Of a DNA stretch of 64,000 nt, positions 2,396 to 23,685 are shown one piece after another. Numbering within the stretch: the first letter of the stretch is position 1; every line of letters starts with the position of its first letter. Both the position numbers and the translations under genes were made by a program. The notes under the pieces were generated by a model. The model searched no databases. It had not been told where the DNA came from and saw only the letters and a program-made list of their open reading frames with translations. This stretch comes from Anadara kagoshimensis (Eukaryota > Mollusca > Bivalvia > Arcoida > Arcidae): positions 37,632,763-37,696,762 of the forward strand of contig CM037868.1 in assembly GCA_021292105.1 (NCBI GenBank), read 5' to 3'.

Positions 2396-2468
2396 ATGTT
2401 ACATCGAGGACATTACATTTTGTTGCTGATCAGTCTGCATGTTACTGGAAGTCCCGCAGCTCAAGAAG
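2396..2468 (+). CDS. Exon 1: signal peptide
   Basis: ATG at 2396 opens a short basic start (MLHRGH) and a hydrophobic core (YILLLISL), ending in TGSPAAQE before a donor GTAATT. It ends in phase 1, matching exon 2. Too short to appear as a long ORF. Confidence 0.75.
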
Positions 2469-5400
2469 GTAATTACATAATAATATAATACCAGTGTTCT
2501 TATCTTATCTTATCTTATCTTATCTTATCTTATCTTATCATCTCATCTCATCTCATCTCATCTCATCTCATCTCATCTCATCTCATCTCATCTCATCTTA
2601 TCTTATCTTATCTTATCTTATCTTATCTTATCTTATCATCTTATCTTATCTATATTCGACACCTTTTAATAGGCCATAGGTGCATTTTAATAATTGTCAG
2701 CCAGATCACACCAGCCTACACCGATGTGACCATGACTGGCAGTGTGTATTGTCAGCCAGATCACACTAGCCTACACCGATGTGACCATGACTGACAGTGT
2801 GTATTGTCAGCCAGATCACACTAGCCTACACCGATGTGACCATGACTGGCAGTGTGTATTGTCAGCCAGATCACACTAACCTACACCGATGTGACCATGA
2901 CTGGCAGTGTGTATTGTCAGCCAGATCACACTAGCCTACACCGATGTGACCATGACTGACAGTGTGTATTGTCAGCCAGATCACCCTAGTCTACACTGAT
3001 GTGACCATGACTGGCAGTGTGTATTGTCAGCCAGATCACACTAGACTACACCGATGTGACCATGACTGAGAGTGTGTATTGTCAGCCAGATCACACTAGT
3101 CTACACCGATGTGACCATGACTGGCAGTGTGTATTGTCAGCCATATCACACTAGCCTACACTGATGTGACCATGACTGGCAGTGTGTATTGTCAGCCAGA
3201 TCACACTAGACTACACCGATGTGACCATGACTGGCAGTGTGTATTGTCAGTCAGATCACACTAGCCTACACCGATGTGACCATGACTGACAGTGTGTATT
3301 GTCAGCCAGATCACACTAGACTACACCGATGTGACCATGACTGGCAGTGTGTATTGTCAGCCAGATCACACTAGCCTACACCGATGTGACCATGACTGGC
3401 AGTGTGTATTGTCAGCCATATCACACTAGCCTACACCGATGTGACCATGACTGACAGTGTGTATTGTCAGCCATATCACACTAGCCTACACCGATGTGAC
3501 CATGACTGGCAGTGTGTATTGTCAGCCAGATCACACTAGCCTACACCGATGTGACCATGACTGGCAGTGTGTATTGTCAGCCAGATCACACTAGCCTACA
3601 CCGATGTGACCATGACTGGCAGTGTGTATTGTCAGCCAGATCACACTAGCCTACACCGATGTGACCATGACTGGCAGTGTGTATTGTCAGCCATATCACA
3701 CTAGCCTACACCGATGTGACACTGACTGACAGTGTGTATTGTCAGCCAGATCACACTAGCCTACACCGATGTGACCATGACTGGCAGTGTGTATTGTCAG
3801 CCAGATCACACTAGCCTACACCGATGTGACCATGACTGGCAGTGTGTATTGTCAGCCAGATCACACTAGACTACACCGATGTGACCATGACTGGCAGTGT
3901 GTATTGTCAGCCAGATCACACTAGCCTACACCGATGTGACCATGACTGGCAGTGTGTATTGTCAGCCAGATCACACTAGTCTACACCGATGTGACCATGA
4001 CTGGCAGTGTGTATTGTCAGCCAGATCACACTAGCCTACATTGATGTGACCATGACTGGCAGTATGTATTGTCAGCCAGATCACACTAGCCTACACCGAT
4101 GTGACCATGACTGGCAGTGTGTATTGTCAGCCAGATCACACTAGACTACACCGATGTGACCATGACTGGCAGTGTGTATTGTCAGCCAGATCACCCTAGC
4201 CTACACCGATGTGACCATGACTGGCAGTGTGTATTGTCAGCCAGATCACACTAGCCTACACCGATGTGACCATGACTGGCAGTGTGTATTGTCAGCCAGA
4301 TCACACTAGCCTACACCGATGTGACCATGACTGGCAGTGTGTATTGTCAGCCAGAACACACTAGCCTACACCGATGTGACATGACTGGCAGTGTGTATTG
4401 TCAGCCAGAACACACTAGCCTACACCGATGTGACATGACTGGCAGTGTGTATTGTCAGCCAGAACACACTAGCCTACACCGATGTGACATGACTGGCAGT
4501 GTGTATTGTCAGCCAGATCACACTAGCCTACACCGATGTGACCATGACTGGCAGTGTGTATTGTCAGCCAGATCACACTAACCTACACCGATGTGACCAT
4601 GACTGGCAGTGTGTATTGTCAGCCAGATCACACTAGCCTACACCGATGTGACCATGACTGGCAGTGTGTATTGTCAGCCAGATCACACTAGCCTACACTG
4701 ATGTGACCATGACTGGCAGTGTGTATTGTCAACCAGATCACACTAGACTACACTGATGTGACCATGACTGACAGTGTGTATTGTCAGCCAGATCACACTA
4801 GCCTACACCGATGTGACCATGACTGGCAGTGTGTATTGTCAGCCAGATCACACTAGCCTACACCGATGTGACCATGACTGGCAGTGTGTATTGTCAGCCA
4901 GATCACGCTAGCCTACACTGATGTGACCCTAACTGGCAATGTGTATTGTCAGCCAGATCACACTAGCCTACACCGATGTGACCATGACTGCCAGTGTGTA
5001 TTGTCAGCCAGATCACACTAGCCTACACCGATGTGACCATGACTGGCAGTGTGTATTGTCAGCCAGAACACACTAGCCTACACTGATGTGACATGACTGG
5101 CAGTGTGTATTGTCAGTCAGATCACACTAGCCTACTCCGATGTGACCATGACTGGCAGTGTGTATTGTCAGCCAGATCACACTAACCTACACCGATGTGA
5201 CCATGACTGACAGTGTGTATTGTCAGCCATATCACACTAGCCTACACCGATGTGACCATGACTGGCAGTGTGTATTGTCAGCCATATCACACTAGCCTAC
5301 ACCGATGTGACCATGACAGACAGTGTGTATTGTCAGCCAGATCACACTAGCTTCACCGATGTGACCATGACTGGCAGTGTGTATTGTCAGCCAGATCACA

Positions 5401-8400
5401 CTAGCCTACACCGATGTGACCATGACTGGCAGTGTGTATTGTCAGCCAGATTACACTAGCCTACACCGATGTGACCATGACTGGCAGTGTGTATTGTCAG
5501 CCAGATCACACTAGCCTACACTGATGTGACCTTGACTGGCAGTGTGTATTGTCAGCCAGATCACACTATCCTACACCGATGTGATTATGACTGGCAGTGT
5601 GTATTGTCAGACAGATCACACTAGCCTACACCGATGTGACCATGAATGGCAGTGTGTATTGTCAGACAGATCACACTAGCCTACACTGATGTGACCATAA
5701 CTGGCAGTGTGTATTGTGCGTATGTCTGCTTTGTACTAGTGCGCACTAAGGGCGAGTTTTTAGGTGCTAGCTCACCGAGACGACAATTGCAGAGGTTGCA
5801 GCCTCACCGGTCCATTATCCTGACACCGGATAAGTCAGCAGCAATGTGAAATGAAGTGTTAGTTAATAGCACACTAGACGGCCGTTTCGGAATATAATTC
5901 CTCATCAGTAATGCTTGTACACCAAAATTGTGAAACTAACTTTTTTTGCAAGATGTTGAAAAAATGTCCAAAGGACAAAAATTTAACTAAGGAAATACTT
6001 TACATGAGATAGTATACCTAAGGTTTTGAGGATTTTACTTTTTGAAGGTTTTCTTTAAAATATTTGTAATAATGAACATTGGTTATTTATAAATGGAATG
6101 GATGAGACTCTTATATTAATTTAACCACATCAATGACTAATATTAAATTCCAATGTCTGCCAAAAGTAGGGGGTGCTCACATAAGTACCATAGACACACT
6201 GCTGGACATTTACTCCAATAGCCTATCAAAAGTCGGCAATTTTATAATATGACTAAAGCCACACCACTGAATATTTCCTCTAGTACCCGTCCAAAGTGGT
6301 CACAAAAGTACTATAGCTACACCACTTGACATTTACTCCAATATCCGGGTATCAAAAATTGGGAATTTTATAATAGTTCTAAAACCACAACACTGGGTAT
6401 TGGTTTTAGTTCCCGATAAGAGTCGGGATTCTTATAACCAGTTTTCAAAAATACTATATCTACACAAATGGACATTGTCAGCAAATAGTTAATCTATCAA
6501 GAGTACTACAAGACTTTAACCACGCTTCTGGACATTTACTCCATTGTCAGTCCAAAGTCAGGAGTTTTATAATCAGTCAAAATGGTTAAAGCACTAGAGA
6601 ACACAAAATGCAAGTCTAAGATGAACAGCAAAACAAGACATTATAGAAGATACGCCACTGATAAGAATACCCGACTGTAAATTAACCCTGTAGTTTATTC
6701 TAAGTAAGCATAGTATATAATATAGAACGGTGAACTACAAAATATGACACGTAATTCACATCAAATGATATCTGTTTCAGCTTGCAATAGTTACATTTTA
6801 AGACAGATGGGATCAAGTATTCATGCCCGACAACTCTTGGTGAAATCTACCGCTATACAAGGATCCGATAAAGTAGTATCCTTTAAGTGTCTTAGTAACG
6901 AGTTTTATCTGAATAAAAATGTCTACATAACTTGTTATTCCGGCGGTCAGTGGAATGATACCTTACCAAAGTGTTTAAGACGATGTCCGGAGATAGTACC
7001 CAGAAAACTGACCAATAGTGGACAACACATCAATGCTACTAACAACATTGTAAAGAGCACGGACGATAGGCGCCAAAACACAACTGTTTATCTGTCATGC
7101 GCAACGGATGGTTATGAACCGGAAACTACGCCATATTTGACATGTCTACCTAATTCATCTTGGGATAGAGCGGTTCCATTGTGTAAAAGTAAGTTGTCCT
7201 CTTTTTGTTTTACATATTATCTTTAAAACACAAAATTATGTTTTTTACAAATTACAAATAATGGTTTTTATTTACTTGTTAGTTTATTTATTAAATCATT
7301 TGGTTAAAAATTCGCTTGCCATTTACATTTTTTCTTGAAGTACCTTTGTGATCAAACTTGGGTTACTTTTGAAAACTTATTTGGTTGGTTGGTTGGTTGA
7401 ATGTTGCTTAACGTCGCATCAGCAATTTTTCAGCTATTCGCGACGAGAACTATTTTATTAATCTCTATGGATTAATCTATGAACAATTTTGTGTATGCAT
7501 GTGAAGTGCGAGTGTGTTGTATGGTCTGCCTTGTACTAGCGCGCACTCAGGGCAACTTTACCGTGCTAGCTCACAAAGTCAGTACGCCACAGACAAGCGT
7601 ACCACTACCCCAGTCCATTATACTGATACCAGGTGAACCAGTAAAGGCCAACGGTAAGGAAAATTCACTTTCCTACATGTGGTCCGAGGGGGGAGATTTA
7701 ATTTTCCTTACCGTTGGCCTTTACTGATTCACCTGGTATCAGTATAATGGACTGGGGGAGTGAAAACTTATGAAAAAATTTACTTTACTCACCAGGTGTG
7801 CCACCAAAACCGTTGCCATTGGAGACCAAGTTGACTATGATTTATGGATCGTTAGCAGGGTTGCTGTTTTTCCTTATAATTATAAATATAATAGTTGTAA
7901 TCATTTACAGAAGACGAAACAGGTAGTGATTATATAATTTGTATCAAGATGCATGAAAATATTTTTATAAAACATGTTGCCATGGGTATATTGCAAGCTT
8001 TGGCTCACAAAGGCCCTCAAAAGTTTTATGTCCGTCATTACAATATTGTTGATAAGTATGATGTCTCTGTATTTAAAAAAAAACCACTGCGGTAGCTCAG
8101 TTGGTAGAGTGCTCGCTCCGCAAGTGAGAGGTCGTGGGTTCGAACTCCGACCGGGTCTGACTCAAGACTTGAAAGTGGATAGTGACTGTACTTTCGTCAA
8201 GCACTCGGCATTACGAAATTAAAGTCACGGTTCTTTCTGATGGAAACTTAAAATAAACGATGTTCTGTGTCACGGTGGGCTTGGCACGATAAAGAACCCT
8301 GCTGTTTAATGCCATCAGCGCAACGCACAGGCAAAATTTCTGCACCTTCGCCTATAGCTGTCGATGTCTCGATATAAGTGAAATATTCTTTACTGGGACG

Positions 8401-11400
8401 TTAAACACCATTACTCAACTCAACTGTATTTAAAAATTATTCTGGATATACATTTGACGTCCCATAGTTACATTATGTTCCTTTAACTCCCAATTTCCTA
8501 TACGCGCACGGTGGGTGTAGCTAGATAAACAGAAGCTAACTTTTTTTGGAGCACCCGGTCTCACTTCCCTGGTGGTCTTTTGCGTGTTTAACCGAATTTG
8601 ACTGTTATAACGTTTTTACTTTGCGTTGGAATTGTTGTTTGGACATAGATTGGTATGTTTATTTTTACTTTGCGTTGGGATTGCGATTTTAACATGGATT
8701 GGCATGTTTGTTTTTACTTTGTTTGGAATTAACATTTTGACATTTATTAGTATGTTTGTTTTTTACTTTGCGTTGGAATTGTGATTTGGACATGGATTAG
8801 TATGTTTGTTTTTACTTTGCATTGTGATTGCGATTTTAACATGGATTGGCATGTTTGTTTTTACTTTGTTTGGAATTAACATTTTGACATTTATTAGTAT
8901 GTTTGTTTTTTACTTTGCGTTGGAATTGTGATTTGGACATGGATTGGTATGTTTGTTTTTACTTCGCATTGGAACTGTGATTTGGACATGGGTTGGTATG
9001 TTTGTTTTTACTTTGCGTTGGAATTGTGATTTGGACATGGGTTGGTATGTTTGTTTTTACTTTGCGTTGGAATTGTGATTTTGACATGGGTTGGTATGTT
9101 TGTTTTTACTTTGCGTTGGAATTGTGATTTGGACATGGGTTGGTATGTTTGTTTTTACTTTGCGTTGGAATTGTGATTTGGACATGGATTGGTATGTTTG
9201 TTTTTCCTTTGCGTTGGGATTGTTATTTGGACATTTATTGATATGTTTGTTTTTACTTTGCATTGGGATTGTGATTTTAACATGGGTTGGTATGTTTGTT
9301 TTTACTTTGCGTTGGAATTGTGATTTTGGACATGGATTGGTATGTTTGCTTTTGACTGCCTTTTTGAATTTTTGAACATATTTAATGATAAAGATAAAAT
9401 TTAAAAAACTTGTATTTGGCATTGATATATTAGACCGTTTTTTACCTTTGTTCATTTTTTCAGTAAGAAAGCTGTTCCCGAGGTATTTGAAGGTCAATAC
9501 CAAGCTCCTGAAAGGTGAGATGAATTTTTAAGTGTGCTTGTTTAAAAACATATTATATAATTTGTGTACTAGGACCGACTAAGGACTTCGACATCTAACC
9601 TTTCACCGGTTGAAATTTAAAGTCGTATTCCTTTTTCTAACAATATCTTTTATAGAAAAAACTACAAAAATACGGTCACCAAGTCTTATGTGAAATCTCG
9701 GAAACAATTGACGTCAAATGATGACGTCATGTGACGTGTGCCCTATTACACAGACTGTTCATGTACCTTGAGGAGTGATCTATAGATCCCGGTAACGGCA
9801 ATAACGTTCCATTATTTTTTCTGTCCATAGAATCTTCCCACCAAAAAACGGAAACGGGTAAGATCAATTATTCAATACAGTCCAACCTGCTTTAAAGGCC
9901 ACCTCTATATAAGGACCACCTGCTTATAAAGGCCAGTAGAATTGTATCCCAATTGTTCTTTATTCATAGAATTTGAAACTGTATGTTAAGGCCACCTGCC
10001 CATAAAGGTCAATTGTTCCCTTTATAGACAGGTTTGAATGTACTTCAATCGAAGCTTAAAAGCAGGTCACAATTAGTCAATCATCTACACATCATTAATA
10101 CTACCCTCTGTAAGTGGGAGATCGTGGGTTCGATCCAAGGGTCTGACCAAAGATTTGAAAGTGGGTAGCGACTGTACTTTCGCAAAGCACTCGGCTTTGC
10201 GTTGCGAAATGAAAGTCACCGTTCTTTCGGATGGGAACTTAGGATGGGAAATAATAGGTGTGATATGGTAATATATATATATATATATATGGTAGGTGTG
10301 GCACGATGAAGAACCCTGATGTATAAATGCCATCAAAGCATTGCACAGGCAAATCTCTGCACCTTCGCCTATAGCTGGCGACATCTCGATAAAAGTGAAA
10401 TATTCTTGAATCATAGGCGTAGGAGGGTTTTTAATATTGGGGGGGGGGGCCAAACCGAAGCTATGTCTATGTCGTACCGTATCGTTTTTTCAAAACTAAG
10501 TCTTGTCTAGACGCATTTTCAATGTATTGTGCATCTTTTTGATAGGTTAAAATACTGTGATATCAAGGCAATAAATAACTGTATGACACAAGTTCCATAA
10601 TCACCCCTCTCATTGGAGATGGATATCAGAAGCTGATCCAGAATTTTAGAAAGGGGGGCTTATGATGTGAGAGCCGAAGGCTCGAACCTTCTAGGGGGGT
10701 TCGGGGGCATGCTCCCCCGGAAAATTTTGAAAATGTGGCGCAAAAATCCTGCATTCTGGTGCAATCTGAGCTAAACAATATGTATTATTAGCGACATAAT
10801 GGGCTGAATCCGCCACTGGATATGGGGGGCAACCCTGGATTTTGACGCCCTTTTACAAGTATAATGATAAAATTTATAATTGATTGGTTACCAGAGCGAC
10901 ATTTCCTGTTAAAGCTCTTGTTTTTTTTGGTTTTTTTTTGTTTTCTTTTTTTTAGCACTTGCACTATAAACATAAACTATGATACAAAATTTCACACAAA
11001 ATATTGCGGGGGCCTGGCCCCCCCTTCTCTGACATTGGGGGGGCCCGGCCCCCGCTGGCCCCCCCCCTGCTCCTACGCCTATGTGAATGGGACGTTAAAC
11101 ATCATTACTTAACTAATACTACACGTGAGTGAAGACTAATTACTTCATAGCATACCGGAATATCATGTTTAACCTACCTACCTATCCTCTTCGCTCCACG
11201 TGGAGCATAAGGTCAATACAAGATTTGGCCATTCAGATCTGTTTTTTGCCTTTGACTCAGCCTCTCCCCAAGTCAGCTGCAGATCTTTCAGTTGACCTTC
11301 TACAGTTCTTCGCCATGTTGTTTTTGGCCTTCCGCGAGGTCTTTTCCCTTGGGGTGTCTATCTTAATGCTTCTTTGGTTATGCAGTCCCCTTCCATTCTA

Positions 11401-14400
11401 AAAACATGCCCAAGCCATCTAAACCTTCTTTGAGTGATCTCGTCAATTATACATTTTGAGTCTGTCATTTTCAATAAGTTTGAATTTGATATGGTGTTCG
11501 GCCAGAATATTTTACAAATTTGACGCAAACAGCTATGATGGAAACTAGATAGTGATCTCGTATCTGCCGCAAGTTTGGTAACCCTCCAGCATTCACTTCC
11601 ATACAACAATACTGATTTAACATTGCTGTTATAGAGTTTGACTTTGGTCTTTCTGCTGTATTGTTTTGATCTCCATATAGGTTGTAATTTGTGGAATGCT
11701 GTTCTTGCTTTGGATAGTCTGTTCTTTATGTATTTCTGTGTTGGGTCTTTCGTGCTTACAACTGCGCCTAAGTATGTGAATTTGTCTATTTGCTTAATTT
11801 CGTTTCCATCAAATTTTAATTTTTAATATCATGTTTAAATTCTATAGTAATTCTGTTTTGTTTTCTCCAGGTTTTATAAGGTATGGTGCAGTCATAGAAA
11901 CACACGGAAAGTGTTAAAAGCTAAAAGTTTAGAAGACCTAAAACAGAACGGTAGGAAACGAAATACATAATCAAAAAACACTAACATATAGTAAACACCT
12001 GTCGAAAGTTTAACAATAAGCTAACGGATAATGGCCAGGCCTCGGTTTCACAATCATTGCTTAGCTAAGATTTTCCTTAACTATTCAAACTTTATTGTCG
12101 TATAATCAGATGACAGATTGTGACAAACGAATACAATACAAACAAGCAAGGAACATAAAAAATACTATAAGTCTGGCATATATCGAATACAGAGTAAAAA
12201 ACAACTAAGAGTCTCCCGTCCTCAGTTCCAACGACTGTTTAATGAAGGAGGCTGATCTTTTTACTTGACAAAAGTCTGTAGGATTAAGCAGGTCCACCAG
12301 TTTTTCAATATCGGTAAAATTATTAAAGTTGGGTATTTTAAATGATATATCATCAAAGAAAGTATTTCTCAAGTTTTCATTAATTTTGCAATATAATAAA
12401 AAGTGTTTACTGAAAATCTGGTAAAATTTCAAATCTTTATAATTTTGTTAATTTTCAAGATATTTAGGAATTTAAAATGTCATTTTTAAGACCACTTCTA
12501 GATTTAAACACTTTCATTTAGTTTTGACAAAAATATTCATCAGTATTTCCAAAAATAGATAACCAAAATTTGCTAAATTTAAGTTAACTGGGACCAGCTC
12601 ATTTTGGCTCCTTCTCGCCACAGGGGTTCAAAATTCCCTGGGTCCGAGGTCCGGGACCTATTGATTTTACCTTGGGACCATTGATATTTAAATTGTAAAA
12701 GTCCGATGGACCTGCCATTTTTACCAGAATAATTCTACTTTTTCAATATAATTACATAATTGCAAATGGATCTTTCAATGTTGATATTGGACTTTTAAAA
12801 CTTTATATGAGGGACCTGCCAAAAATAAAGGCAAAAGGTCCTGGACCTTCCATTACAAAACATAATTTTAAACCCCTGCGCCAACTGCTACATATATTAT
12901 CTTTGCAGCTTTCGACCACTAGTTATGCATATCTCGGCTGTAGAGCTTTAACTTCTTTTGTTAGCTCAGTGTTAAACTTTCGACAGTTCTGTGCTGTACC
13001 CATCAAAGTAGAAATTCAGTCCTAAAAACAAAACAGAAACTTTGAAAACGATAGCAAATTAGTTTAGATAGTTTTCAAAAAAATTAAACTCCACAAAGGA
13101 ATGTGGATTGGCATGTCGTATTACCTCATCTAATAGATATATAGCTTTCGCTTCTGTACCACGTGATTAACACTCCTTAACATTTGTGTGGAACGCACGT
13201 CGCAAAATTCGCGGAATAACTTACCGTAGTTTTTACTGGAAAACATCATCTTTTGCGATTCCATATCCATTTTATATCTCCATTCATCAATTTAAATGTG
13301 TTTCGCGAAAACGTTAGAGGGTATCACGTGGTACATCGACAATCTCATTTGCATTTGTGACCAATACCTTGTATCCGGTCTATCCAGGAAACAGTACTGA
13401 AGAAGAGCAGCAGACAAGACCATGTGTTATTTCTTGTTCTCTGGTCATAGTTTCTTCCACTAAACAGGGACCCAATAATCGATTATTCAATACTTCTATC
13501 AAGAGCTTAAAATCTGTTTGATAAAATTCCATTAAATAAGATTTACACCCATGCAAAGTATTAAGCTTAGTTTAAACAATATATTATTTTAAAAAAGCAT
13601 TAGACAATTACATATTATACCAGTTTTAATTTTACAGCACTAGACGGCCGTTTCGAAATACAATTCCTCATCAGTAGTGCTTGGACCAAAATTATGAAAC
13701 CTAAATTTTTTTGAAGATGTCGAAAAGCTACCCAAATGACCAAAATATATTTTTCAATTTAAGCTAAGGAAATACTTTGCATGAGGGAGTATACCTTAGT
13801 TTTTGAGAAATTTAAAATGTTCAACATAAAAACATATAGACATGTATCCTGGAACAAGCCGAAAAGGCTTATATTAACCTGTTTCCATAAGTATTGAGTC
13901 CTAAATGGCTTATATAAGTATTGAGCTTTACAGTCAGTGGTCCTACCAGGTGGTAGTCTTGTCTTGTCTTGTAATGTCTTGTTTGGTTTTACGCAACAGT
14001 CAAGATCAACTACTTATTTATCGAGGCGGTCAGTTCAGGGATGGTGGAGGGAACTGGAGTGCCCGGATAATACAATCAGCCTTCTGAAAATGGACGGACA
14101 GATCTCTTGGCCAGCCGCCTTATCTTTGGGAAGAATGTGGCACCGGTGAAAAACACGAAGATATATATAAATGATGATGTTGGTAAATAAATTTAAATTT
14201 TTTTTTAATTCTTCGATAGCGGCGTTAGCCTTTAAATACACCGATACAGTTCGTATTGTCCTTGAAGAAGACGGAACTGAACTTGAAACAGACGAAGGGT
14301 TACTTGTGTACACAGATAAGATATTAATGGTTTTATCGGCTGAAGAAACATGGCGGAAAGTAACAGACGACAATGGTGACAGAGATGTCGACGGATCTAA

Positions 14401-17017
14401 GTGAGTATCAACCGGACATTGTCACTATATATAACCCCCATCTCATCAAAGACAGTGCCTTGTAAATACACATATTTTTAAAGAAAAAAATTGAGACAAC
14501 TGTTATACTGTTTCATGTCCCAGTTAAGATTATTTGACTATTCGAGGTGGTTAGTTCTGGGATGGTAGAGGAAACTAGGGTGCCCAGAGAAAAGGCGTGG
14601 TCTACCTTCAGCAAGAAAACTGACAATTTTCTCACACAAGAACCTGCCCGAACACCGTTACACAGTTACACCATACGCCATTCGCTTAAACACTATTGTT
14701 CCACTCCACTCAATACGCACGCCACATAGTTAATGACGTCATTTCAATTTAAAGAACGGGCATGCTAATGGGGACTGATATGTTGTAACACTAGTGTGAA
14801 TAGCCAAGTTACATGATTTATTCCGAAATAATAAACTTCCCAATTTCCGTTGTTTTCTAATGGGGACTGATTTGTTGTAACACAATTTGTGACTAGTGTG
14901 AATAGCCGAAGTTACATTGATAATTTATTGTGATATAAGCTTCCCAATTTTCGTTGTTTTGTTGGACATCCTTATAAGTCACGAATTTTCATATTAACTA
15001 AATAGTATATATTACGAATACCCATAAATCACTAATTTAACAACTTAAACCCAAAAGATACTACTTTTTCATAACCACAAAAATTAGAAAATACGAAAAA
15101 ATTGTTTTTAATGTTTCAGGTTTACTTTTGACGTTTGTTCTTTTGACCGGAAGTTACGAAAATTGATTTTGGCGGAAGGATTAGCAGATTTAAAACGACA
15201 AGGTATTTAATTTAGTTACCGTGTTACCGGAAGCAGATGTAGAAATGTATCATCGTGATATCCGCTTAAATTTGTGCGACGTTTTCGTTTGTTTAATTAC
15301 GAGAGCTTCTTAGAATTTAAAAAATTATGGTATTTCATATTCAATTAAAAATATCCTCTTAAGTAAGAGAAGAATTGTAGACTTCATGTGTGAACCAACT
15401 GTTGGAATAAATCTACTGTTTGTTTACAAGTTCATGATAAAACGGCCAATGTACGCATGAACACGACACAATAAAATACATTGACACAAACAGCCGAGTA
15501 AGACAAGGCAAATAAAAATGATTATAAAATTTCTGTTAAACGCGCTCCCTTTTGATATTGGTTTGACTATATAGCGTTTTCCCATTTTTACAGGTTCTGT
15601 TTGTTTTGGTTACCCTGTGTCTGTGGCGTGTTTGGAATCCGATGGTACCGTGATAGACGAGGATGTCAAGTTGTTAGCCTACGCTAACCAAGTGTTTATG
15701 TTACTGGGCCTAACCCAGATTTGGGCACCAAACTATTCAGCTTTTAATACTGATAAAGACTCGATGTGTGGAACAAACAGGTAAATATAGATAACGTAAT
15801 GGCGTTAAACGTCTCAGTCATAAATATTTCACTTATAACGGGACGTCGCCAGCTATAGGAGAAGGTGCGGAAAGTTTTTCTGTGTGTTGCCCTGATGGTA
15901 ATATAAAACAGGGTTCTTTATCGTGCCACGCCTACCGTGGCAGGTGACCTCATTTCTTTTAAGTTCCCATCGGAAAGAAGTGTGACTTTCATTTCTTAAT
16001 GCCGAGTGCTTGGCGAAAGAACAGTCGCTACCCACTTTCAAGTCTTGGGTCAGACCTGATCGGGATTCGAACCCACGACCTCCCATTTACGGAGCGAGCA
16101 CTCCAGTAAGGGTTTCTTTTTTTTCTTCAAAATTCACTGCAATTCATTTAAAACTTTGTCAATCATTACAGGAAAATGTTTAAAATCAAGACCATGGAAG
16201 GAAAAGACAAAATCGCAATTGTGGCGAATAATGTAGTAGAACTTCACTTGTTAGGTAAGCCTACGTGATAAATTTGATTTGTCTCCGTGGAAATGTTACA
16301 TTGTTAAAAACAGAAAAAAGGGTTTTACATTTTGTTAACACAGATTTTACTTTTGTGAACATGGGTTTCATGTAACAGATTTTACACTTTGTCAGCACGG
16401 GTTCTGCATTCTGTCAACTTGGGTTTTACGTTTGTCAACAGGGGTTTTACGTTTTATTAATACGTGTTTTACGTTTTGTCAACGCGGGTTTTACTTTTTG
16501 TTAACACGGGTTTTACGTTTTGTTAACGCGGATTTTCTTTGAATGGATCGTTTTTTGGTTTTTGTGTTAAGATTTATTCTGCCAAAGCACGTAAAATGTA
16601 TCTGTATCAGTCCGGTTTTTTTAATTTGTAGCTGCTAGGATATTAAAATTAAATCCTCCAATACAAGTTCACACAGAAGAAGGGACGACGGTTGTGTCGG
16701 ATTCCGACTTAGAAGCCAACCAAGGGAGACTACTCATTGTGTCCGAAGTGGACAATTCTGGTGCACTGGATAACAAAAAGAGACAAAGCAATGAACAGTC
16801 ACCAAGGCAACATGTTAATTCTTATCAACCGGGGTTATCCTCAAACAGACAAAGTGTTAATCTATATAGACACAGTCTTGCAAGTTATTCATCGAACGGG
16901 ATGCTGTCGGGAACGTATCAAAGGTCATATGATAGTAATCAAAGGATGCTCTCGGGAGCACACCAAAGGTCATATGATAGTCATCACAGATACTGCAATG
17001 AAGAAAGTGAAATGTAG
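2396..17017 (+). CDS. Sushi-TM-triple CIDE-N receptor-like protein, 11 exons
   Basis: Exon model: 2396-2468, 6781-7188, 7796-7922, 9464-9514, 9831-9857, 11871-11950, 14220-14400, 15120-15202, 15594-15780, 16172-16254, 16632-17017. Every border is AG/GT and the phases match across all ten introns (1,1,2,2,2,1,2,1,2,1), giving 562 codons ending in TAG. Order: signal peptide (residues 1-22), two sushi domains (25-160), TM helix (about 175-198) followed by RRRN, a short linker, then CIDE-N domains at about 229-303, 316-400 and 406-485, and a Ser/Asn/Gln-rich tail with a 14-residue tandem repeat (QRSYDS). Sushi domains bind proteins or glycans outside cells. CIDE-N domains (DFF40, DFF45, CIDE proteins) interact head-to-tail through acidic and basic faces. 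A membrane receptor that clusters CIDE-N domains is my inference. The exon chain was read by eye; skipped or extra exons are possible, especially around the 27-nt exon 5. Confidence 0.85.
2500..2652. repeat. Pentanucleotide microsatellite
   Basis: (TTATC)n runs pass into (ATCTC)n and back into (TTATC)n. It lies in intron 1 of the CIDE-N gene. The ORF across it is a repeat artefact. Confidence 0.95.
2685..5718. repeat. 55-bp minisatellite, about 55 copies
   Basis: The unit, beginning AGTGTGTATTGTCAGCCAGA, repeats every 55 bp with few changes for about 3 kb inside intron 1. Around 4360-4500 several successive units lack one base (54 bp), which briefly opens an 18-residue repeat frame. Because 55 is not a multiple of 3, no frame persists and I do not treat it as coding. 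Confidence 0.97.
5712..5845 (+). repeat. R6 repeat fragment
   Basis: Shares the TCTGCCTTGTACTAGCGCGCA-like core and the CCATTATCCTGACACC stretch with the copies near 7384-7757 and 55878-56190. It joins the 3' edge of the 55-bp minisatellite. Confidence 0.7.
5858..6060 (+). repeat. R3 interspersed repeat copy
   Basis: Carries CACTAGACGGCCGTTTCGGA, then TTCCTCATCAGTA and a conserved 3' part (AGGAAATACTTT.CATGAG). Same family as 13596-13815, 58070-58290, 51030-51140, 62455-62540 and, reversed, 26660-26840 and 43890-43975. No protein; likely a non-autonomous element. Confidence 0.8.
6120..6600. repeat. Degenerate tandem repeat
   Basis: About six diverged units of 60-75 bp share CCACACCACT, GGACATTTACTCCAAT and a TCAAAAGTCGG.AATTTTATAAT core. 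A reversed relative lies at 58430-58590. It fills the end of intron 1. Confidence 0.65.
6781..7188 (+). CDS. Exon 2: two sushi (CCP) domains
   Basis: The acceptor is TTTCAG at 6775-6780; the open frame upstream of it is intronic read-through. The exon encodes residues 25-160. Sushi 1 shows the family pattern: early Cys, FKC, YITC, GGQW, then LPKC. Sushi 2 begins CPEI, then has LSCATDGYEP, LTC, SSWDRA and PLC. Each domain has four cysteines as expected. One exon coding two sushi domains ends in phase 1 before GTAAGT. Confidence 0.88.
7384..7665 (+). repeat. R6 repeat copy, in intron 2
   Basis: Starts with (TTGG)n and GAATGTTGCTTAACGTCGCA, continues through GACGAGAACT and the shared GTACTAGCGCGCACTCAGGG core. 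A near-complete reversed copy is at 55878-56190. Confidence 0.8.
7598..7759. repeat. Perfect-looking inverted repeat at the end of R6
   Basis: About 60 bp, from CCCAGTCCATTATACTGATA to GGAAAATTCA, reappears inverted from about 7697 to 7757. The spacer is about 40 bp and includes CCTACATGTGG. It would form a long hairpin. The reversed R6 copy near 55.9 kb carries only one of the arms. Confidence 0.85.
7796..7922 (+). CDS. Exon 3: transmembrane segment
   Basis: The acceptor is CACCAG. The exon encodes a short juxtamembrane part rich in Pro (PPKPLPLE), then a run of about 24 hydrophobic residues (residues 175-198) and the stop-transfer sequence YRRRN. Phase 1 in, phase 2 out, with donor GTAGTG. 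It places the sushi domains outside and the CIDE-N domains inside the cell (type I topology). Confidence 0.85.
7972..9362 (+). repeat. R2 element with expanded 49-bp core, interrupted by a SINE
   Basis: Left part 7972-8066 matches the R2 start (ATATTGCAAGC, GTTTTATG.CCGTCAT, TTGTTGATAAGTATGATG). It resumes at 8437 with TGACGTCCCATAG, GGAGCACCCGGTCTCACTTC and then about 15 units of a 49-bp repeat (TTTTTACTTTGCGTTGGAAT, TGATTTGGACATGG). It sits in intron 3. Open frames across it are repeat artefacts. Confidence 0.85.
8080..8423 (+). mobile_element. R1 tRNA-derived SINE with 13-bp target duplication
   Basis: The tRNA-like head has an A box (TAGCTCAGTTGG) and a B box (GGTTCGAACTCC). It is followed by the body (GCACTCGGCATTACGAAA, CACCTTCGCCTATAGCTG, GATATAAGTGAAATATTC, GGGACGTTAAACACC). 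CTGTATTTAAAAA flanks it on both sides (8067-8079 and 8424-8436), and removing it joins the two parts of R2. Confidence 0.93.
9464..9514 (+). CDS. Exon 4: linker after the TM helix
   Basis: TTTTTTCAG acceptor, GTGAGA donor, phase 2 to 2. Encodes KKAVPEVFEGQYQAPE, a short cytoplasmic linker. Frame continuity with exons 3 and 5 is the main support. Confidence 0.7.
9831..9857 (+). CDS. Exon 5: 27-nt microexon
   Basis: CCATAG acceptor and GGTAAGA donor, phase 2 to 2. Adds IFPPKNGN. Its removal would not shift the frame, so it could be optional. Confidence 0.55.
9887..10041. repeat. R5 TIR element
   Basis: ACAGTCCAACCTGC at the left and GACAGGTTTGAATGTA at the right are imperfect inverted ends around AAGGCCACCT motifs. 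Other copies: 1380-1562, 30672-30862, 33298-33582, 43437-43520 and 49935-50062. Confidence 0.75.
10095..11106 (+). mobile_element. R1 SINE split by a DNA element
   Basis: The SINE head and body run 10095-10411. The final GGGACGTTAAACATCATTAC resumes at 11089 after the nested insert. A (TA)n stretch at 10269-10290 lies in its body. Confidence 0.9.
10412..11083. mobile_element. 672-bp non-autonomous DNA transposon nested in a SINE
   Basis: The 14-bp inverted ends CATAGGCGTAGGAG and CTCCTACGCCTATG are bounded by a duplicated TGAAT (10407-10411, 11084-11088). The interior has G-rich/C-rich foldback tracts (GGGGGCATGCTCCCCCGG) and no transposase frame. A MITE-like element that jumped after the SINE landed. 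Confidence 0.92.
11150..11836 (-). mobile_element. LINE fragment: C-terminal end of a reverse transcriptase ORF
   Basis: Translated on the minus strand it gives LYGSECW, CLRQICKIFWP, RRFRWLGHVFRM and, past an in-frame TAG, the tail GKRPRGRPKTTWRR and WGEAE. These are the standard C-terminal blocks of a non-LTR retrotransposon polyprotein. It is 5'-truncated and begins around a KFDGNEI / FTYLGAVVS stretch near 11.83 kb. It lies in intron 5 of the CIDE-N gene, antisense. Confidence 0.85.
11871..14400 (+). CDS. Exons 6-7: CIDE-N domain 1
   Basis: Exons 11871-11950 and 14220-14400. The first starts with FYKVWC, a basic SHRNTRK stretch and LEDLKQN; the second continues with VRIVLEEDGTELETDEG and ILMVLSAEETWRK. 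This is the ubiquitin-like CIDE-N (CAD) fold, about 75 residues. The best-conserved CIDE-N features are present: an N-terminal strand with KV, R-K before the LxxL helix, LEEDGT, and the acidic EGL/VL.L end. It is the most canonical of the three. Confidence 0.88.
12030..12592. repeat. Interspersed repeat broken by a retroelement fragment
   Basis: 12030-12075 (GGTTTCACAATCATTGC, TTAGCTAAGAT.TTCC) and 12430-12592 (TTTTCAAGATATT.AGG, AAAAATATTCATCAGTATTT) match, in order, an uninterrupted copy at 63800-64000. Confidence 0.75.
12076..12432 (-). mobile_element. Truncated non-LTR retrotransposon 3' end (probable)
   Basis: The minus-strand frame of 75 residues has KHFLLYCKINENLR and a Leu-rich end with LLNPTDF, which resembles the post-RT 'HFLL.C' region of non-LTR ORFs. 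A CGACAATAAAGTTTGAA tail is at the 3' end. The family was recognised only by general pattern. Confidence 0.5.
12621..12878. mobile_element. hAT-like foldback MITE, 258 bp
   Basis: The ends CAGGGGTTCAAAATT and AATTTTAAACCCCTG are inverted, and subterminal GGTCCGGGACC / GGTCCTGGACC motifs also mirror. CGCCA directly flanks both ends (12616-12620, 12879-12883). The CAGGGG end recalls hAT elements, though a hAT would leave 8 bp, so the superfamily is uncertain. Confidence 0.75.
12884..13012. repeat. R4 element fragment
   Basis: Right-hand part of an R4 element: ACTAGTTATGCATATCTCGG, then TTAGCTCAGTGTTAAACTTTC and GACAG. The hAT-like MITE lies at its left edge. Confidence 0.7.
13158..13341. repeat. 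R7 CACGTG-ended TIR element
   Basis: TGTACCACGTG at the left and CACGTGGTACA at the right are perfect inverted ends. The interior TCGCAAAATTCGCGGAA / TTTCGCGAAAACG also mirrors. A second copy is at 18170-18346. Confidence 0.7.
13596..13815 (+). repeat. R3 repeat copy
   Basis: One of the best copies: ATTACATATTATACCAGTTT, then GCACTAGACGGCCGTTTCGA, CCTCATCAGTAGTGCTTGGA and GCATGAGGGAGTATACCTTA. In intron 6. Confidence 0.85.
14020..14100 (+). repeat. Short dispersed repeat
   Basis: ATTTATCGAGGCGGTCAGTTC and GGGATGGTGGAGGGAACTGG recur, diverged, at 14530-14640, 20690-20880 (in part), 25150-25330 and 32160-32215. This explains the short ORFs here. Boundaries are unclear. Confidence 0.5.
14760..14965. 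repeat. About 100-bp unit duplicated in tandem
   Basis: AATGGGGACTGAT.TGTTGTAACAC, TAGTGTGAATAGCC and CTTCCCAATTT.CGTTGTTTT occur twice in the same order. In intron 7. Confidence 0.85.
15120..15780 (+). CDS. Exons 8-9: CIDE-N domain 2
   Basis: Exons 15120-15202 (83 nt) and 15594-15780 (187 nt). It encodes FTFDVCSFDRKLRKLILAE, LADLKRQ, then VACLESDGTVIDEDVKLLA and VFMLLGLTQIW. Intron position and phase (2 in, 1 inside the domain, 2 out) are the same as for domain 1, so it is an exon-pair duplicate. More diverged in the second half, but the E-DGT-DED core is kept. Confidence 0.85.
15800..16112 (-). mobile_element. R1 SINE, reversed
   Basis: GGCGTTAAACGTCTCAGTC through the body to ACCCGATCGGG-like and GGATTCGAACCCACGACCTCC and GGAGCGAGCACTC: the reverse complement of the SINE consensus. 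It lies in intron 9. Confidence 0.9.
16172..17017 (+). CDS. Exons 10-11: CIDE-N domain 3 and C-terminal tail
   Basis: Exons 16172-16254 (83 nt) and 16632-17017. It encodes KMFKIKTMEGKDKIAIVAN, VELHLL, then IQVHTEEGTTVVSDSDLEA and RLLIVSE. Same two-exon layout and phases as domains 1 and 2, and the first exon is again 83 nt. The conserved Arg/Lys before the helix is weaker, so this is the most diverged copy. The tail (about 75 residues) is Ser/Asn/Gln/Tyr-rich with a repeated LSG..QRSYDS motif, probably disordered and phosphorylatable. Stop TAG at 17015-17017. Confidence 0.82.
16318..16540. repeat. 22-bp minisatellite
   Basis: About ten diverged units of GGGTTTTACGTTTTGTTAAC in intron 10. Confidence 0.85.
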
Positions 17018-18590: not shown

Positions 18591-19250
18591 TCACAAAAAT
18601 AACCCCAAAATAGGACCCAAAATTGGACCGAAAATCGACCTGAATATTCCCAAAAATATATCCAAAATATTTAAGATGGCTGCAATTATATTGTAAATCG
18701 AAAGGTAAAAAATTTCAAACAGGTTATATGGTAGGTCAGATTCACACCATTTGACGTCAAAGTCATAGGGGACATCGCCAACATAACAATATCTTCTCCA
18801 ATATTTACCACACTCAGTCCATGGCGCACAGCAGTAACCCCAATTTTTGTGAAAATCTGTGTAACACCAGAGATACGTTTTACCGTGAAAACCACATTGA
18901 TGATGTGACATACATACGTCACCATGACGTGTCCCATTACCCCAATCAACGCTTTCAAGGCTTGGTATACATTTTCGAAAAATCTCCTCACGTCTGAAGA
19001 TGGATTCTTTCTCGCCAATCTGACACACAGGAAGTGACGCTCCGTTTCCTTCACATTTTGTTTTACAACAGTTTTCCCAGCCATTTCCGGTCTGACAGTA
19101 GTAAGTACTTTCTCTCGTCCATATCCAAAAACCGGTGTACTCCTGACAATCATCCCGACATTTTTGACCACTCAGAGAAATCTGTTCCGTTGAGCAGACG
19201 ACAGCAGAATTAAACAATAGAAAAGATACAGCGGCGCCATATTGGAACAT
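18591..19250 (-). CDS. Secreted Cys-rich protein with hydrophobic C-tail
   Basis: A single open exon of 219 aa. ATG at 19248-19250 opens a clear signal peptide (residues 1-20). Seventeen cysteines follow, in two related modules: YYC...WENCC (50-62) and YLWCYT...WGYCC (126-141). The WCYT-x-W-x-YCC pattern recalls fibronectin type II-like modules of mollusc secreted proteins, but the spacing is not standard and I cannot name the family. From residue 176 on, the last 44 residues are almost all hydrophobic, with IFGPILGPILGLFL at the very end. This could be a membrane-inserting or amphipathic segment. It points toward, and lies about 1.6 kb from, the end of the CIDE-N gene. Confidence 0.82.
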   Translation of the reverse strand: MFQYGAAVSFLLFNSAVVCSTEQISLSGQKCRDDCQEYTGFWIWTRESTYYCQTGNGWENCCKTKCEGNGASLPVCQIGEKESIFRREEIFRKCIPSLESVDWGNGTRHGDVCMSHHQCGFHGKTYLWCYTDFHKNWGYCCAPWTECGKYWRRYCYVGDVPYDFDVKWCESDLPYNLFEIFYLSIYNIIAAILNILDIFLGIFRSIFGPILGPILGLFL

Positions 19251-19259
19251 TTTGGTACA

Positions 19260-21110
19260 AGCAAAAGATTAATTAATAATGTTAATTTTCAAAATTCAAA
19301 CCATGAAAATGGATTTAATTACTTTTCAGGTGAAATAATCCGGAATAAAGTCTAAATTCTCTTTTTTTTTATTTCACCGTAAAAATGAAGTTTAAAAGTT
19401 TCACATGATGGCTGAATAGCTGAATCTCATCGACATCTATCCATCAAAACAGATCGAAATAATTCTTCGTAAATTCCTCATAGTTCTACCTGTATAACTA
19501 CAGTTTGTAGACTTCTATGGCATTGGACAACCTTTAATAAAGAATAAAAACACTTATATTATCGTCATACACGATTTTTGAATGTATTTTTATTGTAATA
19601 TACTAGTTTCTTAAATGTATTTTATGATTAAATTTAAAAAAAAGTATATGACATATACAACAGCCGTTCTTAAATAACACCTTTCTCCAACACTCAATTT
19701 CTATGTGCCTACATAACATTCTAAATAGTTTTGTTCTTTTTAAGCCTTTGGTCGATCGCACTAATGCCCATTGACCGTAATTCCAGTTCGATCGGGTCCC
19801 GTGCGCCGGTCGCCCTAGTACCTGTGACAGCCAACCCGGCTGGGTCAAATCGAACTGATTACAACACGTTAAGTGGTTTATTCCACGAAACAATGTCTAA
19901 TGGTTAGCACTCAAAACACCAAAGTACAACCTAGATGTTCACATTATTGACCAATAATAAATATTTAAGTACAAAATCAACTGGACAGGTCAGTTTTGTT
20001 TGTCTATACAATACACGTTCAAGGAGGAACTGTTCATGTACAGACTTGACCACTGACCAAAAAACAGGTATACCTTCCTTTTTATAATGAATTGCGGCTC
20101 TAACTAGCTACATGTATTTTCCCAGACTGAAACGGTTTATAATCAAAGCATTTTCCTAAAAGTTTATAAGTTGATCAATTAAAAAAAAGACTGAAATGGT
20201 GCGTCAAGTTTAAACTGGCCGTTTGACCTTTAATTTGATTATTGGCTTGCGTTAATACACCGTATGTATGACATTGACAGCATATTCCATGACCATAAAC
20301 ACCCGGTACCCAGTGCTATCATCTATCCATAGCCGATAAATTACACAGTGGATATGTCTGTTTGGATATCCAAATTAAAGGTCAAGCGGACAGGTTAATA
20401 TTGTTTGCCTATTAAACAGTCAATAATATCAATAACCGTCAATAAAGTATTTAACTTCCTGGTTAAAACAGTTAAAATATAGCCTGATAACGCCTCAAAT
20501 AAAATACGACAGAATTCCTGGTGATAAAAACAGATTATCTTCTGAGAGATAAACACGTGGCTAAATTATTATCAAAAGTAAGTTAAACAAACACACAAAT
20601 TAAACAAATAAGTTTTACCTGGCGACAAGTGTACCTGTACCCGTCTATACCACGTACATACCTAACCTATGGTAGTTTCTTCCTGTTTAAAGAGCACCCC
20701 TGTAGCTAGAAGATACGCCCCAATGAAGATTCTTTTACTGATATCGAGACAATTATTTTTTAACTGTGGTGTCCTAAAAAACAACCGACCCTTTTAAAAC
20801 TGACAAACTTTCTCGCACTAGCTAGGATCTACCAGATCTGGATTCGAACCTAGAGTTTCCCGGCCACCAAAGCCCATTGAAGCTGGGGAAAGTAACGCCG
20901 TGATAAGAACATTTGATATAAGGATTGACGTTTGTATTTTTATCGTTTATGAAGGTTTATGTGTTGAGTCCCATACTTCGTTAACAGTTCATACCTTGAT
21001 GAATGATTAAAATCCTTCCAATCATTGAGTGGTTTGGCTAAAGCGCTACTTTAGGACCATCTACCTTACGCATTCTAGTCGTCTAACAACAAGTAAAATC
21101 TTTATGGACA
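19260..21110. other. Intergenic region, no gene recognised
   Basis: AT-rich. A 96-codon minus frame at 19603-19893 lacks family features. Near 20690-20880 there is a degraded dispersed repeat (GGATTCGAACC). AAATTAAAGGTCAAGCGGAC at 20373 and its imperfect mirror near 20209 suggest a diverged foldback. Confidence 0.5.
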
Positions 21111-21660: not shown

Positions 21661-22677
21661 CTACGTTGTCTGCTTTTTACATGAACAAGTTAGCAGTCGA
21701 ACAAAATGGGGACGATATTTTTGGTTCAAAACAAGGAAAATTATGCAGTTGCAAGTAGAGAATAAACTAGACGATAAAGCTTCAATTGAATATATGAAAA
21801 ACCGAGCTAATTCCAGGCTATATCCCACGGTGTTTCTGTTTATTTTACTGATAATGTTCATATTGGTCAAATTGAACAAAACTGCAAAAATATATAAACC
21901 GGAAATAAACATTAAAGTGATCGTCTGCTTTCTCTCCCTTTCAAGTTGATTGGTGTGGTGGACTTGAAGTTCGTGTGAAATTTGTCTTCTTCTTCGTAAT
22001 CCAACAAATGTTACAATGTTACAGACGACGACAACACTTCCGGTAATGGCTGACGCCAATGTCAACAACAGTAAAGCTGTTCTGAATTCGATCATCAGCA
22101 ATGTAATACCCAGAGCCAAACACGAAACGAATGAGACACAGATGACGGCTTTACCAATAAATGGCGTCCATATTGTCCGAAATTGTAACGCTTTAAAAAC
22201 AGCAAAATTTCGTTCAACTGACATACAAGCAAGGTGAGCCCCGGAACATGGTTTAAAAATGAAATACACAATTATTCCCTTTGAGAACAAAATTTTATAA
22301 AATCGGTACAAATGTACTGATGTTTGTTCGGTAAAACAACTGGTAACGTACCATACTAAAGAAAACCCCAACACAAATAAATCGCAAATGGTCAAGCCGA
22401 TAAACATGATTTCTGTCGACGTTTTCCGTTTCTGTTGAAACAAGACCGTCAGCGATAAAGAGTTAGTCCAAAGTCCAAATAGAAATAACAAACAAAGTAC
22501 AGTCGACACAGGGTATCTTATGTAACCAGGAACTTCAGCTACAGTCGTATTTCCAGATTTGATATTGGCGTCCATGTCTGTGGTGTTGGATAAACTCCAA
22601 TTGGCTGTTGCCATGGTATCCGTTAATACATCAGTATGGTTCAAAAGCGTAAACGCATGCGCAGTACTGTAAGTCAT
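21661..22677 (-). CDS. Orphan rhodopsin-like (class A) GPCR, intronless
   Basis: 338 aa in one exon. The N-terminus (1-52) has four N-glycosylation sequons (N13, N26, N31, N43). Seven hydrophobic segments can be placed at about 57-80, 90-113, 131-154, 174-197, 202-227, 252-273 and 290-317. The TM2 Asp is kept (D99 in LTICDL). C144 and C151 lie in TM3. The DRY motif reads ERN (155-157), and the NPxxY motif is replaced by NCIIF (310-314). A basic third loop (RRRR, then ERERKQ) and a Cys-rich C-tail (CSCKK, possible palmitoylation) follow. The shape resembles invertebrate peptide-receptor expansions; the ligand is unknown. It is followed by an R1 SINE. Confidence 0.85.
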   Translation of the reverse strand: MTYSTAHAFTLLNHTDVLTDTMATANWSLSNTTDMDANIKSGNTTVAEVPGYIRYPVSTVLCLLFLFGLWTNSLSLTVLFQQKRKTSTEIMFIGLTICDLFVLGFSLVWYVTSCFTEQTSVHLYRFYKILFSKGIIVYFIFKPCSGAHLACMSVERNFAVFKALQFRTIWTPFIGKAVICVSFVSCLALGITLLMIEFRTALLLLTLASAITGSVVVVCNIVTFVGLRRRRQISHELQVHHTNQLERERKQTITLMFISGLYIFAVLFNLTNMNIISKINRNTVGYSLELARFFIYSIEALSSSLFSTCNCIIFLVLNQKYRPHFVRLLTCSCKKQTT

Positions 22678-22699
22678 ATCACTTGTTTGATGTGATAGA

Positions 22700-23685
22700 A
22701 CCGGTGGAGAATCGTCCGTTTAAAGCTCTATAGTGTCTATTTCCGCCCGGTTTGTTAGTGACGTAAGAGGCTTTAACTTTCCATGTTAAAAGTGTTATAT
22801 ACTATTTATAGTTCAATAACACTATGCCAACTAATTAGTACGTATTTAAAATTACTTTGGTCCCAATGCTTTTATGACTGATTTGGAAACTGGAGCCTGA
22901 TGCAGTATTTCCCCTCAAACCGTGAATTAATCAGTTTCTCTATATCTGTAATTTTATCATAATTACTGTGCATTATATCCCTACATCACGGTTAAATAAA
23001 TAGATAAATAAAACTATTCTAACCACAAATCCAAAACGTTGACATTCACTGAAGATATGAAGTTGTGATTCCAAAAAACTAGTAGTTAATATTGTCCTGT
23101 TGGTTTGCTAACCAAATTTGTCGATCTCTGCTCGGAATTACCAAAAATAGAGAAGCCACATTAACGAAATTGTTATTTATGCACCTAGTTAATAGCGGGA
23201 AATTACATGGGGACTACAAGCATAATATTGCACAGCGCTATCTGACGTCAGGTTATTGCGATTGGTTGGTGAGAAAATTTTGAATTATGCGATTTTTGTT
23301 TTTGTTTTTCTTATTCTTTTTTATTTTATTTTATTTATTTATTAATTATTTATTTATTTGAAAATGAAACGGAATTTGTATGTTTCTTTAATATCATGAT
23401 TTGAGCTGTTAAAGAACGAATAATGTACAACAATTTTAAAATTTAATTCACTGAGTTATGTAATGCGACACTAGATGGCATGACAAAGAATAAAGCCCTG
23501 GAGTATTTCCACTCAGTGAGTTTGGCGTAAATAAACGCGTGCTTTCTTGCGTATAATCCTTTGAAATGTGATAGACAGATCAAATATGATCACAGAAAGT
23601 TTTGTTAGTTTTACTTATTAATTACTTTAGTGCTTGCGTACTAACAAGTACAGTACAGACCCGTCGAAAGTATAACTTTGGGTGA
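22700..23685. other. Intergenic region, no gene recognised
   Basis: AT-rich upstream region of the GPCR. T-rich low-complexity sequence with (TTTA)n lies at 23290-23360. I see no coding signal. Confidence 0.5.

Follow-up and report, generated by a model that had tools for sequence, protein, structure and literature searches.

The window (the whole stretch of 64,000 nucleotides of DNA analysed here) carries a gene whose predicted product joins sushi modules, a transmembrane helix and three tandem CIDE-N domains in a single protein. It is close to certain that the same architecture, with sushi, transmembrane stretch and three CIDE-N domains in this order, characterises a family of proteins, which we found in oysters, a mussel and scallops. 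The domains themselves are known, but the receptor architecture that they form is apparently undescribed.

Gene structure and domain content

The window lies on contig C12 of a 1.115-Gb genome of 36 contigs, 36 to 100 kb before the end of this 37.73-Mb contig. The sequence-only reading had proposed eleven exons with matching phases between positions 2396 and 17017, and all eleven were confirmed in place (Table 1). They are separated by GT-AG introns (10 of 10) of compatible phases, and splice to one 1686-nt frame (561 aa plus stop) which encodes, in order, a likely signal peptide, two sushi modules, a transmembrane helix, three CIDE-N domains and a tail. The gene spans 14.6 kb, and its donor sites agree with the consensus at 6 to 8 of 9 positions.

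Table 1. Exons of the window gene, with their content and supporting evidence
Exon	Position in window	Strand	Content	Support
1	2396..2468	+	Start codon, likely signal peptide (by eye)	Aligns to spliced relative P0012
2	6781..7188	+	Two sushi (CCP) modules, 8 cysteines	Pfam PF00084; PDB complement receptors; 78% to P0012
3	7796..7922	+	Stalk and transmembrane stretch	Hydropathy; P0012
4	9464..9514	+	Juxtamembrane	P0012 ends at same place
5	9831..9857	+	27-nt microexon, least certain of the exons	
6	11871..11950	+	CIDE-N 1, first half (basic face)	
7	14220..14400	+	CIDE-N 1, second half (EEDGT acidic face)	P0001
8	15120..15202	+	CIDE-N 2, first half; Asp320 vs Lys/Arg in other CIDE-N compared	
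9	15594..15780	+	CIDE-N 2, second half, DGT kept	P0001 (84%)
10	16172..16254	+	CIDE-N 3, first half (basic face)	
11	16632..17017	+	CIDE-N 3, second half (DGT core lost), C-terminal tail, stop	

Two exons encode each CIDE-N domain; the first of them is entered in phase 2, and the intron between the two is in phase 1. Exon 5 is optional, as the join of exon 4 to exon 6 is also in frame. The frame of exon 6 is closed about 20 bases upstream, with no in-frame ATG there, so that it must be preceded by an exon whose donor is in phase 2, as those of exons 4 and 5 are. A paralogue or repeat artefact was considered and rejected: a genome search gave at least 13 matches, of which nine fall on exons of this gene and the others on two CIDE-N loci of C12 and two sushi loci of C4. 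The gene appears to be present once in its genome.

Tandem repeats occur in intron 1 (a 55-bp unit repeated 55 times, window 2693-5717) and in the tail exon (a 45-bp unit present twice, window 16899-16986, so that part of the C-terminal tail is repeated). On the minus strand of the window, a cysteine-rich open frame that reads as a secreted protein adjoins the gene (18591-19268), a 352-aa open frame reads as a seven-helix receptor (21661-22719), and several short open frames at 28105-57090 resemble one another in their cysteine pattern (CCGKC and the like). These short frames are perhaps exons of an EGF-like repeat gene.

Both domain assignments of the sequence-only reading hold, as each Pfam profile passes its cut-off in the window protein: CIDE-N (PF02017) scores 104.4 bits (E 3.3e-30) over three stretches (residues 230-302, 317-390 and 408-473, followed by a low-complexity tail) and Sushi (PF00084) scores 34.6 bits over two stretches (cut-off 20.7). 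Scored singly, CIDE-N 1, 2 and 3 reach 55.5, 39.1 and 24.3 bits, all above the Pfam cut-off of 23.5, CIDE-N 3 barely so. A hydropathy scan (threshold 1.6) flagged a single stretch, the transmembrane one at approximately residues 175-197, and the N-terminus reads as a signal peptide by eye. There are four N-glycosylation sequons, one in sushi module 1 and three in module 2. Among PDB sequences, residues 25-135 of the 135 submitted from the sushi exon match CR1/CR2 (E 3.6e-11 and 8.1e-11). No match to the DFF-C, nuclease or CIDE-C Pfam profiles was found in the window protein (E<=10) or in the set of eleven database proteins put to the same scan (E<=10 or <=1), to which P0012 does not belong. 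NCBIfam gave no match for four of four proteins, and a comparison of exon 7 with phage sequences gave none either, an uninformative result. A KHA domain was rejected, its matches in homologues lying below cut-off.

The alpha/beta roll fold of CIDE-N is predicted in the homologue P0002. Its alignment-based model (mean pLDDT 63, three-module blocks mostly 70-89) comprises three beta-beta-alpha-beta-alpha-beta modules, with a pTM of 0.36 at which domain-domain geometry is not given. In Foldseek comparisons, these modules match entries 4mac, 4ikg, 4d2k and 7v6e with a TMt of 0.84-0.86 and an rmsd of 1.3-1.6 A, and CIDE-A and DREP4 entries with a lower TMt of 0.70-0.79. When the whole P0002 chain is used, tandem ubiquitins rank first, at a low TM-score, and CIDE-N structures are matched by single modules. 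Compared with solved sequences, the family profile finds complement receptor 2 with one end and CIDE-B, CIDE-3, CIDE-A and DREP2 with the other. The P0012 ectodomain model is good for sushi 2 only (sushi 1 blocks are mostly at pLDDT 45-58); complement sushi proteins make up most of the 50 Foldseek matches listed for it, and none of the 50 reaches E<=0.001.

A bivalve family and the one-gene question

We ran three homology searches, each scoring approximately 8000 candidates sharing most words, and the distribution across bivalves refers to the candidates scored. Ten of the 11 proteins matched are family members, the eleventh (P0011) being an insect protein with one CIDE-N; the third search, made with a profile, added only P0012. 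Annotated proteins with three CIDE-N domains each come from Saccostrea cucullata (P0002), S. echinata (P0003), Ostrea edulis (P0004), Mytilus coruscus (P0007), Argopecten irradians (P0008) and Mizuhopecten yessoensis (P0009). By alignment and reading, all of them have a sushi-like N-terminal stretch and a transmembrane stretch ahead of the CIDE-N domains, so that the domain order first read in the window recurs in oyster, mussel and scallop proteins. The Sushi profile is above cut-off in P0008 only, below it in P0002, P0007 and P0009, and not listed at E<=1 in P0003-P0006, but the C, C, W, P, C marks are invariant in 9 rows of the alignment (A4). In addition, P0005 (500 aa, from a 1817-bp contig) and P0006 (496 aa, longest contig 2194 bp) each hold the whole domain order in one uninterrupted frame. 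As the window gene occupies 14.6 kb, these contigs are most simply spliced transcripts; the contig label 'lgn' presumably denotes assembled sequencing reads.

Family proteins are labelled uncharacterised or 'Sushi domain-containing' in public databases. A search of PMC full text (subscription papers being outside its scope) found no description of a CIDE-N membrane protein, in agreement with the earlier suggestion that no receptor of this kind had been described, and we show here that it belongs to a conserved bivalve family. Among the passages retrieved, a jellyfish QTL list holds 'CIDE-N' and 'sushi' on different genes (PMC8748825), and a mussel paper treats Dff-A (PMC3634015).

The tails of these proteins vary. 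An NPxY-like motif is found in seven of the 12 database proteins (P0002 and P0004-P0009) and is absent from the window protein, P0001, P0003, P0010, P0011 and P0012; given this distribution, we did not use it as a conserved feature. P0007, P0008 and P0009 share the C-terminus GGAKQ....SDVLF, which we take to be a possible PDZ ligand and which is absent from the nine other database proteins and the window protein.

The sequence-only reading would have fallen if the sushi/transmembrane exons and the CIDE-N exons belonged to separate genes. For the family, we rejected such an artefact, because the annotated proteins and the two short contigs join both halves; for the window's own lineage, separation keeps a low weight. 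There, P0012 covers exons 1-4 (71% identity) and P0001 covers exons 7-11, and both, from one or two close relatives, support splice sites. The homology-search matches include neither a transcript from the window's own lineage that runs across exons 4 to 7 nor a contig from a near relative that covers exons 5-6. One might imagine two products at one locus, a short sushi-transmembrane protein whose frame closes in intron 4 and a cytosolic CIDE-N protein whose start lies in intron 6, with the joined receptor minor or absent in the window's lineage. Indeed, P0012 stops right after exon 4, where intron 4 of the window brings an immediate stop (window 9510-9519), and the first residues of P0001 are not encoded by exon 6; the last of them align to intronic sequence directly ahead of exon 7. 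In the window, intron 6 holds an open frame with ATG codons that continues into exon 7 (window 14171-14219) and resembles the P0001 start. We nevertheless consider this scenario quite improbable: exon 6 has no upstream in-frame ATG and needs the phase 2 donor of exons 4 and 5, a start in intron 6 would yield only half of CIDE-N 1, and both parts are held together in the oyster, mussel and scallop proteins and in the two full-length contig proteins. The simplest reading is that the split between P0012 and P0001 reflects broken or unspliced contigs, as incomplete splicing or contig breakage accounts for both fragments. The stop after exon 4 and the open frame in intron 6 may still mark alternative products; for example, a truncated sushi-transmembrane isoform, which could act as a decoy, is possible.

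Charged faces and age of the repeats

Interface residues known from studies of DREP2, DREP3 and DFF40/DFF45 (as described in passages of PMC6292858 and PMC8647176) were mapped in DREP2 numbering on ten family proteins and nine other CIDE-N domains (including P0011), with three MAFFT settings in agreement. Repeat 1 is represented by nine rows, as P0001 lacks its first half. P0003 was left out of both the face table and the tree because its ends look mis-modelled; its repeats agree by eye with the family (FDVC in repeat 2).

The faces of the three repeats differ. Position 13 is Lys or Arg in repeat 1 (9/9), repeat 3 (10/10) and the other CIDE-N domains (9/9), but Asp or Glu in all ten copies of repeat 2. 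Repeat 2 also has Gln or Thr at position 36 (10/10), where the nine other domains all have Lys or Arg, and retains R22 and K23 (10/10). Repeat 1 is basic at position 36 in six of nine rows and at position 40 in none. The DGT motif is kept in repeat 1 (9/9), repeat 2 (10/10) and the other domains (9/9), but in none of the ten copies of repeat 3, which in the window's clade also lacks basic residues at positions 23 and 36. Mean basic-face charges are +2.9, +0.9 and +3.3 for repeats 1, 2 and 3 (+4.4 for other CIDE-N), and mean acidic-face charges -6.1, -4.2 and -3.1 (-6.4 for other CIDE-N), the column-wise reading of the repeat 3 acidic face being soft because of indels in its acidic stretch. The face defects are partial in charge and fixed by position in the ten proteins: repeat 1 keeps both faces, with a basic one weaker than in other CIDE-N domains, the basic face of repeat 2 is reduced but not gone, and the acidic face of repeat 3 is weaker but not neutral.

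According to the mutant descriptions in PMC6292858, K13D alone makes DREP2 monomeric and breaks the filament, and DREP2 carrying R36E still assembles, so that the loss of the basic residue at position 36 of repeat 2 may matter less. The initial idea of three equal polymerising CIDE-N domains was not supported in that form, as by the published interface residues only repeat 1 keeps both faces, the basic face of repeat 2 being reversed at position 13 and the acidic face of repeat 3 degraded; the array is better read as one adaptor with two faces and two with mainly one than as a row of three equivalent filament units.

In a tree of 38 CIDE-N domains, the repeats group by position, with support of 81/89 for repeat 1 (moderate), 99/99 for repeat 2 and 100/99 for repeat 3, the root being arbitrary and several rows long-branched. 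Judging from these position groups, the triplication most likely predates the separation of oysters, mussels, scallops and the window's lineage. Intron positions provide a further comparison. CIDE-N exons of two DFF-like genes were found on contig C14, the names DFFA-like and DFFB-like being taken from these exons only. A phase 1 intron occurs at the same place in the three window repeats, in the DFFA-like CIDE-N, in a CIDE-N locus on C12 (L021) and in a transposon-borne CIDE-N, but the CIDE-N intron of the DFFB-like gene appears elsewhere. The CIDE-N of amphioxus Dffa is also reported to have a phase 1 intron (PMC2426694), a likeness in phase.

Loci L021 (C12:24.31 Mb) and L022 (C12:26.16 Mb) are similar, and each holds a CIDE-N related to exon 7 (47% and 44% identity). 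Each has a candidate first-half exon nearby, and several surrounding ORFs are common to both, which makes it likely that they belong to a duplicated block or a mobile unit. The transposon-borne CIDE-N gene (L023-L030) lies in a mobile DNA element of approximately 17.6 kb (C13:32929023-32946625, with copies on C2, C3 and C8), which we assume to be CACTA-like. It has terminal inverted repeats CACTGTAAAAACAAGTGT and apparent 2-bp target duplications (TA, TG), the ends having been compared for two copies. Nine copies have an identical score in the genome search, and four copies compared over approximately 10 kb are 99.4-99.9% identical in long matches, the exceptions being an 847-bp segment with 95% identity and an insertion carried by the C2 copy. 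One ORF of the element has a weak DUF4218 match, below cut-off.

Possible function and significance

The CIDE-N fold and motif are shared with DFFA/DFFB, DREP1-4 and CIDEA/B/C, but these proteins are described as intracellular with one CIDE domain, whereas the window protein has three in tandem behind a transmembrane helix, with unequal faces. Tandem sushi modules are shared with CR1/CR2, CD55 and CD46, and CR1/CR2 are the best sequence matches of exon 2; we know of no CIDE-N in any of them. The window protein has two sushi modules, in contrast to the one sushi-like module of other bivalve proteins. PB1-domain adaptors are ubiquitin-like, exist in acidic, basic and two-faced types and bind head to tail via one acidic and one basic face; we use them as a working analogy for the CIDE-N array rather than as shown homologues.

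Our tentative proposal, which we put forward at somewhat less than even confidence, is that of a conserved bivalve type I membrane protein whose CIDE-N array would serve as a charged-face clustering or recruitment device. The sushi modules would lie outside, binding a ligand or a neighbouring cell, and the array inside. Repeat 1, being two-faced, could associate head to tail with like domains. Repeat 2, with its mainly acidic face, and repeat 3, with its mainly basic one, could pair in cis and form a self-capped pair whose other faces are weak, which would leave repeat 1 free to contact a neighbouring receptor or cytosolic CIDE-N proteins. Alternatively, the one-faced repeats might cap or recruit cytosolic CIDE-N proteins, for example the products of the two DFF-like genes on C14. 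Sushi-mediated clustering would raise the local concentration of CIDE-N, on which CIDE assembly is described as depending (PMC8647176). We infer in this way the partners, the clustering and the output, which could be cell death, nuclease control or another process, as well as the ligand-triggered filament seeding initially imagined. A fuller scheme, that of a new receptor class in which surface recognition is wired to CIDE assembly and ligand-clustered arrays of one two-faced and two one-faced domains seed or cap DFF-like filaments on a route to an apoptotic nuclease, is conceivable but on balance doubtful.

We hold as rather unlikely the reading of the array as a plain oligomerisation tail that clusters receptors in cis for adhesion or scaffolding, with no link to a DFF nuclease or to cell death. 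It would suit the formation of separate position groups by the family repeats in the tree, and CIDE domains are also described in lipid-droplet proteins and in the synaptic DREP2 (PMC8647176), but the altered faces of repeats 2 and 3 are a poor fit to an array in which all three domains polymerise openly with themselves. A role in membrane contact or vesicle fusion, like that of CIDEA/B/C at lipid droplets, is very unlikely: the likely signal peptide and the sushi ectodomain point to the cell surface, and neither the window protein nor the eleven database proteins scanned match CIDE-C, a domain stated to be vertebrate-only in PMC2426694, even though the closest solved sequences are CIDE-3, DREP2, CIDE-B and CIDE-A.

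Bivalves are thought to depend on large sets of innate receptors. CIDE-N domains have been described in cytosolic, nuclear and lipid-droplet proteins, among them regulators of cell-death nucleases. Through a conserved membrane protein that carries three such domains, CIDE assembly in bivalves would gain an input from the cell surface. The opposite charge changes fixed in repeats 2 and 3 provide a testable code for how head-to-tail domains start and stop.
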